DNA from: Hyphomonas johnsonii MHS-2
Lineage (GTDB): Bacteria; Pseudomonadota; Alphaproteobacteria; Caulobacterales; Hyphomonadaceae
Direction of reading: 5' to 3'
Assembly: GCF_000685275.1 (NCBI RefSeq)
Contig: NZ_ARYK01000003.1
Location: 1 to 64,000, forward strand
Length of the DNA: 64,000 nucleotides
The notes beneath the pieces are model-generated. The model made no database searches. It was not told the DNA's origin and saw only the letters and a list, made by a program, of their open reading frames with translations. The stretch's first letter is position 1; the number at the start of each line of letters is the position of its first letter. Of the stretch, positions 25,791 through 58,355 are shown piece by piece. The translations under genes were made by a program, and so were the position numbers.

Positions 25791-25826
25791 GCGTTCAGTC
25801 TGAACGCCAGTTGAACTGGTGCGTTC
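25791..25826. promoter_or_regulatory. Nested palindromes upstream of the lipoprotein
   Basis: GCGTTCAG-T-CTGAACGC (25791-25807) is a perfect dyad. It abuts CCAGTT-G-AACTGG (25807-25819), which is itself bracketed by GAACGC (25802-25807) and GCGTTC (25821-25826). They lie 42-78 bases upstream of the lipoprotein ATG, beyond an AT-rich TATATA stretch. Confidence 0.6.
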
Positions 25827-53044: not shown

Positions 53045-53356
53045 TCAGTGCGCCGTTCTGGCGGCATGAACCTCGGTCAGGCCGGCGTGGTCGATCGCTT
53101 TCACGGCCTTGTTGAGAGTCCGGGCGGTGCAGAGCTTGGTGGCTAACTCGCCGCCGGCCGGGAAGTTGACGTGTTCAGTTGCGCAGCGCTTCGAAATCTC
53201 TTCACGAATGTGCTGATATTCGGCCTGGGCACCTGCGGGCGTATCCATGGCAGCGCGGTTGAAGTCGACGGCGACTTCGAAATTGGTGCTGGTGGCAAGG
53301 GCCGGCATCGCGAAGAGGCTGGCAGCAACGGCGGCGGCGACGAGGGGGCGTTTCAT
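53045..53356 (-). CDS. UrcA-family exported small protein
   Basis: 103 residues: a signal peptide (cleavage after PALA, about residue 21), then a short domain with two Cys, C58 and C76, that would form a disulfide, and a helical C-terminus. It resembles the UrcA family, whose members are small periplasmic proteins of unknown function, common in Hyphomonadaceae-type genomes. It follows the 60-residue hypothetical gene by 93 bases on the same strand. Confidence 0.7.
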   Translation of the reverse strand: MKRPLVAAAVAASLFAMPALATSTNFEVAVDFNRAAMDTPAGAQAEYQHIREEISKRCATEHVNFPAGGELATKLCTARTLNKAVKAIDHAGLTEVHAARTAH

Positions 53357-53879: not shown

Positions 53880-55451
53880 CTAGGCGGAGCGCGACGGGCG
53901 GGTCTGTTCCGGCAGGTCAAGATCGAAGGCGAGCTGGCGGGGCGGCGCAGATGGGCGTCGCAGTGACGCCCTGGCGCGGGGCGTGCGGCCAGTGTCCTGA
54001 CGCCCAATACTGATGGCTGTGGGGGCAGGGGTGGGGCCGTGGCGCAGGGCCTGGATGCGGCCACGGGCCTCGCGCGCCGCAGCCATGTGATCGACAATCC
54101 GCATCGGGTAAGTCTGGCCAAGCACGATCCCGGCGCGGGCCAGCTCCGCCTTCGGGGCGTCCCAGGGGGCGTGAATGAAGGGGGTGGGCAGGCCGGCCAG
54201 CTCGGGCACCCAGCGGCGGATAAAGTCGCCGTCCGGATCATGGTCGAGCGACTGCTTGACCGGGTTGTAGATCCGCGGCGCATGCGAACTGATGATCGCC
54301 GCCTGTGCCATCGCCTGAGGATAGTGGATGGCGGCTTCGAAATCGGTGAACAGCGCGGCCAGCCGGGCGGCGGGCAGGCGTGCGTCGAGCCAGAGATGAT
54401 GCGCGGCAAACGCCATGGTCATGGCGCGCATGCGGAAATTCAGCCAACCGGTCTGGTTCAGCGACCGCATGCAGGCGTCAAGGAAGGGAAAGCCGGTGCG
54501 ACCATGAATCCACGCCTCCAGGCGCGGATCGCCGTCGGCCGCGACCTCGCGCACGCCATCCGGGCCAGGCAGCAGGTTGCGCCTATCGATCGAGGTCTGG
54601 TCTTCAAGCTTCTGGAAGAACTGGCAACGCCATTGCAGCCGCGACAGGAAATTGTCGATCGACGCCGTGAAGGTGGAATCGCCGTCGATATCGTATTCCG
54701 CCCGTGCCCGCCGGGCAGCCTGCCAGGCTTCGCGGACCGATACGGTGCCGAATGCCAGATGGGGCGACAGGCGCGAGCACGCCACGCTCGCCACCAGCGG
54801 GTCCGACATCGACGTCCGGTAACGGCGACCGCGAGAGGCCAGGAAAGACCGCAGCAATTCGACCCCTTCGGCGCGGCCGCCCGGCTGGCGTGCCGTACAG
54901 CCGTCCGGGGCGAGTCGGAAATCCTCGGCGATCGGCCACGGTTCTGACGGAACATTCGCTGCTGCAATCGTGTCGGGCGCCTTGCCGCGTGGTGCTGACA
55001 TCTGGTCTTCCCAGTAGCGCGGCCAGCCATCCCGTACGGACAGGTGCCCGCCGACGCCATTCTGTGCCTGCTCCCGCAGCGCGATTCCGGCCTTCATCGT
55101 CCAGCGCTGGACTGACCGGTCGCGGTCAAACGTCCATTGCAGGCCGGTTTCCCGGTGGACATGGATCGCGGCGATGCCATGGCGTGTGTGGATATCGGCC
55201 AGGACGTCCTCGGCTTTGCCGGTGCGGATGCAGAGGGCCGATCCGCGTGCTTTCAGCGCGTCATCGAGGCTTTGCAGGCATTCGACCAGGAAATCGAACT
55301 GCCGTCCGGAATGCTCCGGCTGGGCCCAGAACCCGGGTTCGAAAATATAGAGGGGCAGCACAGGTGCACCGCTCGCGACTGCGGCGAGCAGTGGCGCGTG
55401 ATCGTGGACCCGAAGGTCCCGCCTGAACCAGACGACATGAAGATCGGTCAT
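53880..55451 (-). CDS. Cryptochrome/photolyase-family protein
   Basis: 523 residues: an N-terminal alpha/beta domain (about 1-130, HVVWFRRDLRVHDH) and a C-terminal FAD-binding helical domain. The FAD contact region SRLSPHLAFGTVSVREAW and the strand with FSLQWRCQF-type residues (RLQWRCQFFQKLEDQ), GFPFLDACMRSLNQTGWLNFRMRAM and the Trp tail are present. It repairs UV-induced pyrimidine dimers with blue light, or acts as a cryptochrome; sequence does not separate them. An added Pro/Arg-rich tail ends FDLDLP. It starts at 55451 with a weak ribosome site. The promoter gap contains a large palindrome. Confidence 0.88.
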   Translation of the reverse strand: MTDLHVVWFRRDLRVHDHAPLLAAVASGAPVLPLYIFEPGFWAQPEHSGRQFDFLVECLQSLDDALKARGSALCIRTGKAEDVLADIHTRHGIAAIHVHRETGLQWTFDRDRSVQRWTMKAGIALREQAQNGVGGHLSVRDGWPRYWEDQMSAPRGKAPDTIAAANVPSEPWPIAEDFRLAPDGCTARQPGGRAEGVELLRSFLASRGRRYRTSMSDPLVASVACSRLSPHLAFGTVSVREAWQAARRARAEYDIDGDSTFTASIDNFLSRLQWRCQFFQKLEDQTSIDRRNLLPGPDGVREVAADGDPRLEAWIHGRTGFPFLDACMRSLNQTGWLNFRMRAMTMAFAAHHLWLDARLPAARLAALFTDFEAAIHYPQAMAQAAIISSHAPRIYNPVKQSLDHDPDGDFIRRWVPELAGLPTPFIHAPWDAPKAELARAGIVLGQTYPMRIVDHMAAAREARGRIQALRHGPTPAPTAISIGRQDTGRTPRARASLRRPSAPPRQLAFDLDLPEQTRPSRSA

Positions 55452-55525
55452 GGAACAAACATAGAACATTTGACCGGAACCTCAAGCAGATTCTGCAAAT
55501 CCGCTTTTGTTCACCTCCACACGGC

Positions 55526-55553
55526 GAAATTGTTTCGGATCCGAAACAATTTC
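55526..55553. promoter_or_regulatory. 28-bp perfect palindrome in the photolyase/glycosyltransferase gap
   Basis: GAAATTGTTTCGGA (55526-55539) is followed immediately by its exact complement (55540-55553), with no spacer. It lies 75 bases before the photolyase ATG and 50 bases before the glycosyltransferase ATG. A homodimeric regulator site is the simplest reading. Confidence 0.75.
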
Positions 55554-55564
55554 AACCTGTGGTT

Positions 55565-55586
55565 TGTGGATACAGGTTTATCCACA
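55565..55586. promoter_or_regulatory. Inverted DnaA-box pair
   Basis: TTATCCACA (55578-55586) is a perfect DnaA box. TGTGGATA (55565-55572) is an inverted partner (one mismatch from the box), giving TGTGGATA-N6-TATCCACA. It is 12 bases after the 28-bp palindrome and 17 bases before the glycosyltransferase ATG. Confidence 0.6.
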
Positions 55587-55602
55587 GGGTTCTTGTTAAC
55601 CT

Positions 55603-57036
55603 ATGGGTGCGGATGGGTTCATATCGTTTGAGCGGCAGCCACGCGTAGGGCGTGCCATTCCGGCTGAACCGGAGCCCGATCCGGCATTGGCGGATATGGC
55701 TGCGATGGGGTTTTCACGCAGTCACCCGGAGGGCTCGGCGATCGTCGCAATAACACCAGGGCAGCGTGGTGCCCTGCGCCGGGTGTTCGTCCTGATCGGC
55801 CTCGCCGGCCTTCTGGCGCCGATCATGCTGGTGCGTGGCGCGCTGGCGGCAGGACTCTTCATATTCGGGGCAACGATAGCGTTCCGGCTCGCCATGGTCC
55901 TGTCGGCATCCAGGTCCCGGCCAGCGCAGCAGGTCCGGGATGCCGACCAGGTTCTCTACCCTGTGTACACCATCCTTATCGCGCTGAAGGATGAAGCGGC
56001 GACTGCGCCGCAACTTGCCCGCGCGATCGCGGCGCTGGATTACCCCGCAGACCGGATCGATCTGAAGCTGCTGGTCGAGACGGGAGATGACGATACGCAT
56101 GCCGCCTTGAGGGCGGAAGACTGGCCGATCGGCACCGAATTGCTCGTCCTGCCCCCCGGATTGCCGCAGACGAAGCCGCGCGCCCTTAACTATGGCCTTG
56201 CCCGTGCGAAGGGGGCCTATGTCGTGGTGTACGACGCCGAGGACCGGCCTGACCCGGCCCAGCTGCGCGCCGCCGCGGAAGCCTTTGCGCGCGACCCGGC
56301 GGGCCTGGCCTGCGTGCAGGCGCCGCTCGTTGGCACACATGCGGGGCACAACTGGCTAGCGGGCCAATGGGCGCTCGAATACGCGATCCAGTTCTCGCTG
56401 ATCCTGCCGGCGCTCGCGCGTTTCAGGCTGCCAATTGCACTCGGCGGCACGAGCAACCATTTCCGGCGCGCACGCCTGGTTGAATCTGGCGGCTGGGACG
56501 CATGGAACGTCACCGAGGATGCCGATCTCGGTCTGCGGCTCGCGCGTCTTGGCATGCAGGTCGGTGTGATCTCGCCGCCGACCGAGGAGGCCCCGCCAAA
56601 CCGGATTCCCGTCTGGCTTGGCCAGCGGTCACGCTGGCTGAAAGGATACCTCCAGACATGGTTCGTGCTGATGCGCCATCCACGGGCATCGGCGCGCCAG
56701 ATGGGCGTTGGCGGGTTCGCTGCCATGCAGCTGACGCTTGGGGCGTCCGTTCTCTCGGCATTCGTTCATGGGCCCTGGGCGCTCTGGTGCCTGGTCTGTG
56801 TCATCAGCCCGGACCTGTCGCTCGGGCCGGTCGGCGCCGGCTTGCTTGCGGCTTCCTACGGGGCGTCACTTGTGACCGGGCTTCTGGCACCCCGCCCGAA
56901 GCAGGCGGGCTACGGGTTCGTCCTGCTGACCGCGCCATTCTATTGGCCATTGCAGACCATCGCGATGATGCGCGCCGTGTATGGCCTGCTCCGGATGCCG
57001 CATTATTGGGCGAAGACGCCGCATGCCCCAGTGTGA
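55603..57036 (+). CDS. Family 2 glycosyltransferase (cellulose-synthase-like)
   Basis: 477 residues: N-terminal soluble segment, two membrane helices (about 58-95), a GT2 domain with the nucleotide-binding DAED (near 207), TEDADLGLR (near 308) and QRSRWLKGYLQTW (near 346), then three C-terminal helices. This is the layout of processive inner-membrane transferases that make polysaccharides. The sugar and product are unknown. It lies divergently from the photolyase. No partner polysaccharide genes are seen, and the 28-bp palindrome and DnaA boxes sit upstream. Confidence 0.88.
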   Translation: MGADGFISFERQPRVGRAIPAEPEPDPALADMAAMGFSRSHPEGSAIVAITPGQRGALRRVFVLIGLAGLLAPIMLVRGALAAGLFIFGATIAFRLAMVLSASRSRPAQQVRDADQVLYPVYTILIALKDEAATAPQLARAIAALDYPADRIDLKLLVETGDDDTHAALRAEDWPIGTELLVLPPGLPQTKPRALNYGLARAKGAYVVVYDAEDRPDPAQLRAAAEAFARDPAGLACVQAPLVGTHAGHNWLAGQWALEYAIQFSLILPALARFRLPIALGGTSNHFRRARLVESGGWDAWNVTEDADLGLRLARLGMQVGVISPPTEEAPPNRIPVWLGQRSRWLKGYLQTWFVLMRHPRASARQMGVGGFAAMQLTLGASVLSAFVHGPWALWCLVCVISPDLSLGPVGAGLLAASYGASLVTGLLAPRPKQAGYGFVLLTAPFYWPLQTIAMMRAVYGLLRMPHYWAKTPHAPV

Positions 57037-57140: not shown

Positions 57141-58355
57141 ATGGCCTATGACGTCACCGAAGACCTCGAAGCGTTCCGCACCGAAACGCGTGACTGGCTG
57201 GAGGCGAACTGCCCGCCATCCATGCGCACGCCGATGGCCGACGACGAAATCGTCTGGGGCGGCAAACGCGGCGAATTCAAGAATCCCGACTCGAAGGTCT
57301 GGCTGGACCGGATGGGTGAAAGAGGCTGGACCGCACCGGAATGGCCTGCTGCCTATGGCGGCGGCGGCCTGACGAAAGAACAGAACCGCGTGCTGCAGGA
57401 AGAGCTGCGCCGCATCAAGGCGCGCCCGGCGCTGTTCTCCTTCGGTCTCTGGATGTTCGGTCCCGCCTTGCTGGAGTTTGGCAACGAGGAGCAGAAGAAG
57501 CGCTTCCTGCCCGACATCGTGAAAGGCAAGACGCGCTGGTGCCAGGGTTATTCCGAACCGGGTGCGGGCTCTGACCTCGCCGGCCTGCAGACCAGGTGCG
57601 AGGACAAGGGCGACCATTACCTGATCAACGGCCAGAAAGTCTGGACGTCGTATGCTGACCAGGCCGACTGGATCTTCTGTCTCGTGCGCACAGACACGTC
57701 GTCAAAGCACGAAGGCATCAGCTTCATCCTGTTCGATATGGAAAGCCCCGGCGTGGAAGCGCGGCCGATCCTGCTGGTCTCCGGGTCGTCTCCTTTCTGC
57801 GAAACCTTCTTCACCGATGTGAAAGTTCCCAAGGACCAGCTGGTCGGGCGGGTGAATGGCGGCTGGGAAATCGCCAAGCGCCTGCTGCAGTTCGAACGCT
57901 CGTCAATCTCGGCTGGCGGATTCGGCGGTACGGGCGGCTCAGGCATCCTGGGCCCGGAAGAATATGCCAAGATCCATGTCGGCACCGACAGTGAGGGGCG
58001 CATCGCCGATGGCGACCTTCGCGGTCGTATTGCGGACCACAAGATGTACGCAAAGGCGTTCAACCTGACCGTCCAGCGCCAGACCGAGCAGGCCAAGGCC
58101 GGCCAGCAGGTTGGTCACACGGCGTCCATCCTGAAATATGGCGCCGCCAAGATGAACCAGGACCGCCATGAACTCCTCATCGAGGCGCTCGGTACTGAAG
58201 GCCTCGGCTGGGAAGGGGAGGGCTTTGACGAGGGCGCGATGAAGGCGACACGCGGCTGGCTGCGCTCGAAGGGCAACTCGATCGAAGGCGGCACCAGTGA
58301 GATCAACCTCAATGTCGTTGCCAAGCGCGTATTGGGCCTGAAAGACCACCAATAG
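57141..58355 (+). CDS. Acyl-CoA dehydrogenase 1
   Basis: 404 residues of the ACAD family. FAD and substrate motifs: WCQGYSEPGAGSDLAGLQ near 134-151 and IEGGTSEINLNVVAKRVLG at the C-terminus. A helical insert near residues 265-290 is longer than in short-chain ACADs. It would oxidise an acyl-CoA to the enoyl-CoA. The ATG at 57141 follows AGAGGAG; a longer upstream frame overlaps the glycosyltransferase gene and is not used. It starts a three-gene unit with the DsbA-fold isomerase and the second ACAD. Confidence 0.93.
   Translation: MAYDVTEDLEAFRTETRDWLEANCPPSMRTPMADDEIVWGGKRGEFKNPDSKVWLDRMGERGWTAPEWPAAYGGGGLTKEQNRVLQEELRRIKARPALFSFGLWMFGPALLEFGNEEQKKRFLPDIVKGKTRWCQGYSEPGAGSDLAGLQTRCEDKGDHYLINGQKVWTSYADQADWIFCLVRTDTSSKHEGISFILFDMESPGVEARPILLVSGSSPFCETFFTDVKVPKDQLVGRVNGGWEIAKRLLQFERSSISAGGFGGTGGSGILGPEEYAKIHVGTDSEGRIADGDLRGRIADHKMYAKAFNLTVQRQTEQAKAGQQVGHTASILKYGAAKMNQDRHELLIEALGTEGLGWEGEGFDEGAMKATRGWLRSKGNSIEGGTSEINLNVVAKRVLGLKDHQ

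Follow-up and report, generated by a model that had tools for sequence, protein, structure and literature searches.

Upstream of a family 2 glycosyltransferase (GT) gene of Hyphomonas johnsonii MHS-2, a perfect 28-bp palindrome encloses a dyad that is conserved across the genus and is probably a protein-binding site. The promoters of ccrM, of uvrA (in the gap shared with ssb), and of a PAS_5 gene adjacent to mucR carry near-identical dyads at fixed positions. On the strength of these shared sequences, the dyad is likely to be the operator of one putative dimeric regulator common to the four promoters. The palindrome lies in the gap between the divergent photolyase and GT genes, within the window, i.e., the whole 64-kb stretch of DNA that was analysed. 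The features of this region are:

53880-55451, minus strand: DNA photolyase (FAD_binding_7, DNA_photolyase)
55453-55467, minus strand: LexA (SOS)-type box GTTC-N7-GTTC of the photolyase gene, of the same type as the box before lexA
55526-55553, no strand: 28-bp perfect palindrome, with the conserved core TTGTTTCGGATCCGAAACAA at 55530-55549
55530-55569, plus strand: conserved GT-promoter block (ungapped alignment, 21 non-redundant genomes), comprising the dyad and a AATTCAAC..TG.TTT.T.G-type sequence
55565-55573, minus strand: DnaA-box-like GTATCCACA (8/9), 16 bp from the 18-bp dyad core
55578-55586, plus strand: DnaA box TTATCCACA (9/9), in the same place, 44-46 bases from the start of the 16-mer, in 11 of 35 GT gaps
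55603-57036, plus strand: family 2 GT, the gene downstream of the conserved dyad
57141-58355, plus strand: acyl-CoA dehydrogenase, downstream of the GT on the same strand, a possible co-transcribed target

The palindrome, GAAATTGTTTCGGATCCGAAACAATTTC, is spacerless as read in the window, and 11 bases separate it from TGTGGATA-CAGGTT-TATCCACA, which starts at 55565. An earlier note on this DNA had described this arrangement of a dyad and an inverted pair of DnaA boxes, one of them perfect, and it is found as described. The gene distances given there are also right, the photolyase starting at 55451 (or possibly at another in-frame ATG, 55469) and the GT at 55603. The dyad is as rare by chance as that note had held: no other spacerless perfect palindrome in the window reaches 18 bp, and base composition gives an expectation of about 0.0006 for the window and 0.03 for 3.62 Mb. 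In 100 dinucleotide shuffles of the window, the longest palindrome reached 24 bp, in a single occurrence. Counted over the whole genome, the palindrome has one copy, also when up to three mismatches are tolerated, which rules out a common dispersed repeat. Among the GT gaps read, the 28-bp perfection is found in H. johnsonii MHS-2 only, and it is partly luck. It arises from a palindromic spacer (GATC) and matching outer bases.

The part conserved genus-wide is a dyad of ~20 bp, TCGTTNCG-N4-CGNAACGA, with some 20 bp beside it. Far from being absent in relatives, it is kept in GT gaps across the genus. Searched as GTTNCGN4CGNAAC within 170 bp upstream of the GT, it is found exactly in 18 of 37 loci, with at most one mismatch in 28, and with at most two in 34; GT starts were picked as ATGG or GTGGG with the best dyad 40-76 bases ahead, so that these GT counts are not fully independent. 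The 37 loci include G001x (a second G001 locus with only the 3' half of the GT) and G051 (no GT start found), while G005 and some further genomes, in which the GT is reduced to remnants, lie outside them. G001x and G051 were excluded from the DnaA-box count and the GT matrix scoring, both on 35 genomes, and, together with G020, from the 21-genome alignment and the pair count. The 16-bp dyad core begins 69-71 bp ahead of the GT start in 24 genomes. In the alignment, the conserved block spans bases -2 to +37 around the core start, and the flanks outside it are weak, except for single columns and the start-codon region. Within GT gaps, the half-sites are conserved and the spacer drifts. Among 28 distinct GT sites, position 4 is paired in 8, position 7 in 5, and position 8 in 11, the pattern-fixed positions pairing by construction and the spacer and position 4 being free. 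The spacer and position 4 are thus mostly non-complementary, which favours binding by a protein over an RNA hairpin. The proposal of the earlier note that the dyad is the site of a dimeric DNA-binding protein accordingly gains support, as conserved half-sites, an unconserved spacer, and a fixed place before the GT would all be expected of such a site.

In G010 and G001, an FAD-type gene adjoins the photolyase and the dyad, with two mismatches in each, remains with the GT. Because it stays at the GT where another gene adjoins the photolyase, the dyad, judged by its location, belongs to the GT promoter and not to that of the photolyase. The GT itself is broken or fragmentary in at least G005, G011, G015, G017, G020, G021, G023, G045, G051, G053, and G054, and the dyad persists despite a decayed GT in G005, G053, G054, G017, and G045. 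A second dyad is observed 5 bases past the GT stop, before the acyl-CoA dehydrogenase, in four genomes: G043 (L058, 2970-2987), G008 (L066, 3009-3026), G046 (L118, 702-719), and G022 (L119, 569-586). These second dyads suggest that acyl-CoA dehydrogenase genes may be targets too.

The three further promoters came from a pattern search over 42 Hyphomonas genomes, part of whose matches were read in context. Upstream regions were used from 39 of 40 matching genomes for ccrM, 39 of 41 for uvrA, and 33 of 40 for the PAS_5 gene; in the remaining ones, no locus was fetched, the contig ended, or only a weak match was available. Within 170 bp upstream of ccrM, the dyad is exact in 21 of 39 genomes, has at most one mismatch in 24, and at most two in 28. 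The corresponding numbers are 12, 19, and 21 of 39 for uvrA, and 9, 26, and 33 of 33 for the PAS_5 gene. Dinucleotide-shuffled gaps yield 0-0.08% exact matches, 0.4-1.0% with at most one mismatch, and 7-11% with at most two, so that two-mismatch matches mean little without a fixed place. Such places exist: the ccrM dyad lies at -115 to -125 in all 24 genomes having it (in G014 the best pattern match is elsewhere and the dyad is at -115), and the PAS_5 dyad at -121 to -131 (in G041 and G055 the best match is elsewhere and the dyads are at -125). The uvrA dyad is located ~10 to 47 bases ahead of the start codon. The PAS_5 site of H. johnsonii MHS-2 has two mismatches, a level reached by ~10% of shuffled gaps. 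The PAS_5 gene lies between mucR and an orphan Bac_DnaA_C gene, an order seen in L316 and L233 (G002:C8). Its upstream region displays, in the 30 genomes examined, the dyad, a TTAA-type sequence, and several GANTC sites. Upstream of uvrA (L049, L155-L184), a LexA-type box is accompanied in 19 of 39 genomes by the dyad, which lies near the uvrA start.

A matrix built from 54 distinct ccrM, uvrA, and PAS_5 sites, with the GT sites excluded, has the consensus TCGTTTCGGATCCGAAACGA and corresponds to a sharp site of 20 bp and ~25 bits. It gives the window dyad 30.94 bits, above all training sites (maximum 29.58), and the next-best place in the 64 kb scores 6.62 bits. GT dyads reach at least 16 bits in 33 of 35 genomes, and 212 control window stretches at most 6.6 bits. 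Since the other sites were selected with a motif that itself came from GT gaps, this matrix test is supportive and not independent. Among the matches listed, a looser pattern gives 8 in this genome vs 8 for the reversed control. Three of these 8 listed matches are intergenic GTTWCGN4CGAAAC sites (GT, ccrM, and uvrA/ssb), and five lie inside long ORFs. Copies inside long ORFs were not counted as sites (L111, L113, L112, L116, L117, L042, L035, and most of 20 stretches). Those in L111 and L113 sit in a wrbA-like ORF (named by eye), and L042 and L035 come from H. johnsonii MHS-2.

The dyad is missing before ccrM in 15 of 39 genomes and before uvrA (at most one mismatch) in 20 of 39. All 19 uvrA-dyad genomes fall within the 24 ccrM-dyad genomes (19 of the 23 examined); the members of that group devoid of a uvrA dyad are G012 and G056, plus G007 and G018 (one-base deletion). 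In a CcrM tree rooted on Henriciella (38 Hyphomonas rows, 8 partial, G046 left out), 14 of 14 genomes without the ccrM dyad group together on a single branch (support 100/99), which nests among the 24 genomes having it. A UvrA tree of 29 sequences agrees with it (G001 was dropped as too short, and G011 was labelled dyad-less though its ccrM was not found). A single loss of the ccrM dyad could explain its gap; a single branch of loss also implies that few independent events stand behind the counts, related genomes not being independent. The GT and PAS_5 dyads are present on both sides of the ccrM-dyad split. Beyond Hyphomonas, all 10 genomes examined in a second genus of the family (g12) carry the PAS_5 dyad, at 20 bits or more, and five of these ten (L369-L373) have a second copy of at least 11 bits 22-26 bp away. 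The PAS_5 dyad is also present in one g14 genome, and is absent in one g13 genome and in 5 loci from other families. A score of 15 bits is attained by 6 of 80 ccrM loci from various Alphaproteobacteria: five belong to Hyphomonas or close relatives, and the sixth, one of two Henriciella loci, has TTGTCCACA ~15 bp upstream. The named loci closest in ccrM are from Hyphomonas, and L239 (H. pacifica) has the same ccrM upstream sequence as G009, so that the genus searched (g1) is taken to be Hyphomonas.

The DnaA box consensus is TTATCCACA. The earlier note had suggested DnaA control from the boxes beside the palindrome. The place of the perfect box is kept in 11 of 35 GT gaps, and its inverted partner reaches 8/9 only in H. 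johnsonii MHS-2, the best other GT gap having 7/9. None of the sought boxes is found near the dyad in 24 of 35 GT gaps. As TTATCCACA occurs in 11 of 35 gaps and the inverted partner only here, DnaA control of the GT would be at most lineage-specific or local. The orientation of GTATCCACA and its 16-bp spacing are the same as those found at ccrM of H. johnsonii MHS-2. At ccrM, 21 of the 24 dyad-bearing genomes have a DnaA box (8-9/9) at a distance of 16 bp from the 18-bp dyad core, and the remaining three have CTATCCACA at 15 bp. A box is present within 170 bp of ccrM in 24 of 39 genomes, the same number as for the dyad, and box and dyad go together. Joint action of DnaA and the putative dyad-binding factor at ccrM is a reasonable hypothesis. 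Within 170 bp of uvrA and of the PAS_5 gene, DnaA boxes number 0 of 39 and 0 of 33, respectively.

The photolyase has a regulatory element of another type. A GAAC-N7-GAAC sequence (55453-55467), overlooked in the earlier note, abuts its start codon; it is one of two LexA-type boxes in the window, at 25802 and 55453, and a box of this type also precedes lexA of H. johnsonii MHS-2. The alphaproteobacterial LexA box consensus is given as GTTC-N7-GTTC in PMC4211646, and as (T/A)TGTTC(N6)TGTTC in PMC13384398. The photolyase box is present in 25 of 25 genus loci seen, and a strict test that includes the start codon finds it in 24 of 26 photolyase loci; in G002 the box is present and the start codon changed, and L023, from another family outside the genus, has a photolyase without it. 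With this box at its start, the photolyase is probably under its own ordinary LexA/SOS control, separately. A joint photolyase/GT switch of light repair and surface polysaccharide, as imagined in the earlier note, is therefore unsupported, the photolyase having its own box and the dyad tracking the GT. Upstream of uvrA, a LexA-type box is found in 30 of 30 loci read, and within 250 bp in 31 of 39; ssb was confirmed as the other neighbour of uvrA in part of those loci. No LexA-type box is found within 250 bp of ccrM (0 of 39) or of the PAS_5 gene (0 of 33). In L006, L007, L008, L010, L011, and L013, an FAD-type oxidoreductase-like gene (named by eye; start MTIAIVGAGMAGLSAAE or similar) replaces the GT beside the photolyase. 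A UrcA family protein (TIGR04433) is encoded near the photolyase gene, at 53045-53356 on the minus strand.

In the mechanism proposed, a dimeric transcription factor would bind the dyad in the GT promoter, perhaps also governing the acyl-CoA dehydrogenase genes behind. Each subunit would read a half-site (T)CGTTNCG, with 10 bp, or about one turn of DNA, between the centres of the two half-sites. This factor would also occupy the dyads upstream of ccrM, of uvrA (within the uvrA/ssb gap), and of the PAS_5/Bac_DnaA_C genes adjacent to mucR, thereby tying the GT to a set of genome-maintenance and cell-cycle genes. The traits of an operator are found here, namely inverted half-sites kept while the spacer drifts, and a fixed place at several unlinked targets. 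A dimeric transcription factor would fit the one-turn spacing of the half-sites, the freedom of the spacer, the constant promoter positions, and the paired copies in g12, and we infer that one protein binds all these sites, as a dimer, and acts on transcription. A consensus search of the photolyase/GT gap revealed no sigma-70-type promoter, so the sequence is compatible with either sign of control, repression or activation of a weak promoter. The position of the uvrA dyad, ~10-47 bases ahead of the start codon, would be suitable for repressing uvrA or for regulating ssb. The target gene set is without a single evident physiology. A wider proposal is possible but more doubtful than probable: an undescribed global regulator of Hyphomonadaceae would couple ccrM methylation, uvrA/ssb excision repair, the PAS_5 protein with the orphan DnaA-type domain, and the envelope GT to replication initiation, via the dyad located 15-16 bp from the ccrM DnaA box.

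Other explanations account for part of these data. The dyad might be a local operator of the GT and the acyl-CoA dehydrogenase only, its likeness to the ccrM, uvrA, and PAS_5 sites being convergence or chance. The second dyads before the dehydrogenase in four genomes would agree with this, as would dyads that outlast the decay of the GT (G005, G053, G017, and G045). It is nevertheless unlikely, since a matrix made without any GT site separates the GT dyads of 33 of 35 genomes from the controls by a wide gap in scores, and fixed positions recur at four unrelated promoters. Alternatively, the inverted boxes might be the switch of a DnaA-controlled promoter, to which the palindrome is secondary. 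The constant place of TTATCCACA in about a third of the GT gaps and the 15- to 16-bp spacing at ccrM speak for such a promoter; the genome-specific inverted partner, the majority of GT gaps lacking the sought boxes, and the box-free upstream regions of uvrA and the PAS_5 gene make it very unlikely.

An RNA hairpin, or a terminator or attenuator, in which the palindrome or the box pair would form a stem-loop in the transcript, is highly improbable. The plus strand does fold strongly (-22.7 kcal/mol, z -5.3), and the inverted box pair with its T-containing tail (55563-55588) also fits a terminator-like stem. Folding of two relatives, however, gives z values of only -2.1 and -1.8, the relatives retain the half-sites and not the pairing (8 of 28 GT sites at position 4 and 5 of 28 at position 7), no Rfam match appears up to E 1, and the upstream gene is on the opposite strand, leaving nothing to terminate; an RNA element was rejected on the first three of these grounds. 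Finally, a chance palindrome without function would explain why the 28-bp perfection is confined to this genome among the GT gaps read, but it is scarcely credible given the expectation for the window and a core kept genus-wide in both place and sequence.

One perfect and one 8/9 DnaA box adjoin the dyad. The region differs from a replication origin, which is ruled out in the window examined, by the absence of an origin-like cluster of DnaA boxes and of a GC-skew turn at 55.5 kb. With the LexA/SOS system, the dyad shares two divergent gaps, photolyase/GT and uvrA/ssb, in which a LexA-type box is also present. The LexA box, however, is a direct repeat of another sequence, whereas the dyad is an inverted repeat; the dyad contains no GTTC-N7-GTTC and is thus not a LexA box, and a second LexA-type repressor was discarded, the genome having only one LexA (PF01726) match. 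The parS site of ParB is TGTTTCACGTGAAACA, of 16 bp with a CG centre. It has TGTTTC...GAAACA arms in common with the dyad, but the dyad is 18 bp long with a free N4 spacer and occupies four promoter places, and in a direct comparison the two sequences do not match.

The sites of two Caulobacter regulators were also compared with the dyad. The site of the WYL-domain protein DriD, which controls a DNA-damage regulon, is ATACGAC-N7-GTCGTAT, and its named targets are didA, bapE, recJ, dnaG, and driD (PMC12340889). Like the dyad, it is a ~20-bp pseudo-palindrome for a dimer, but its half-site, its spacing, and its named targets are unlike those of the dyad, whose sequence does not match the DriD consensus. 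HigX, linked with SOS and envelope genes, recognises ATGTTASC-GSTACCAT (PMC13384398). This site is an inverted repeat as the dyad is, but it is spacerless with another half-site, and its consensus does not match the dyad either. No literature description of the dyad motif was recognised, and string searches for it, which cover few subscription papers, came back empty.

Hyphomonas is a dimorphic budding relative of Caulobacter. The shared dyad suggests one regulator of genome upkeep, and should a single protein recognise all the sites, ccrM, which encodes the cell-cycle DNA methylase, would be wired in Hyphomonadaceae to a factor unmatched among those described in Caulobacter, with uvrA/ssb and an orphan DnaA-domain protein joined to ccrM under the same factor. 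Hyphomonas would then be well suited to studying how the circuit of the cell cycle was rewired.
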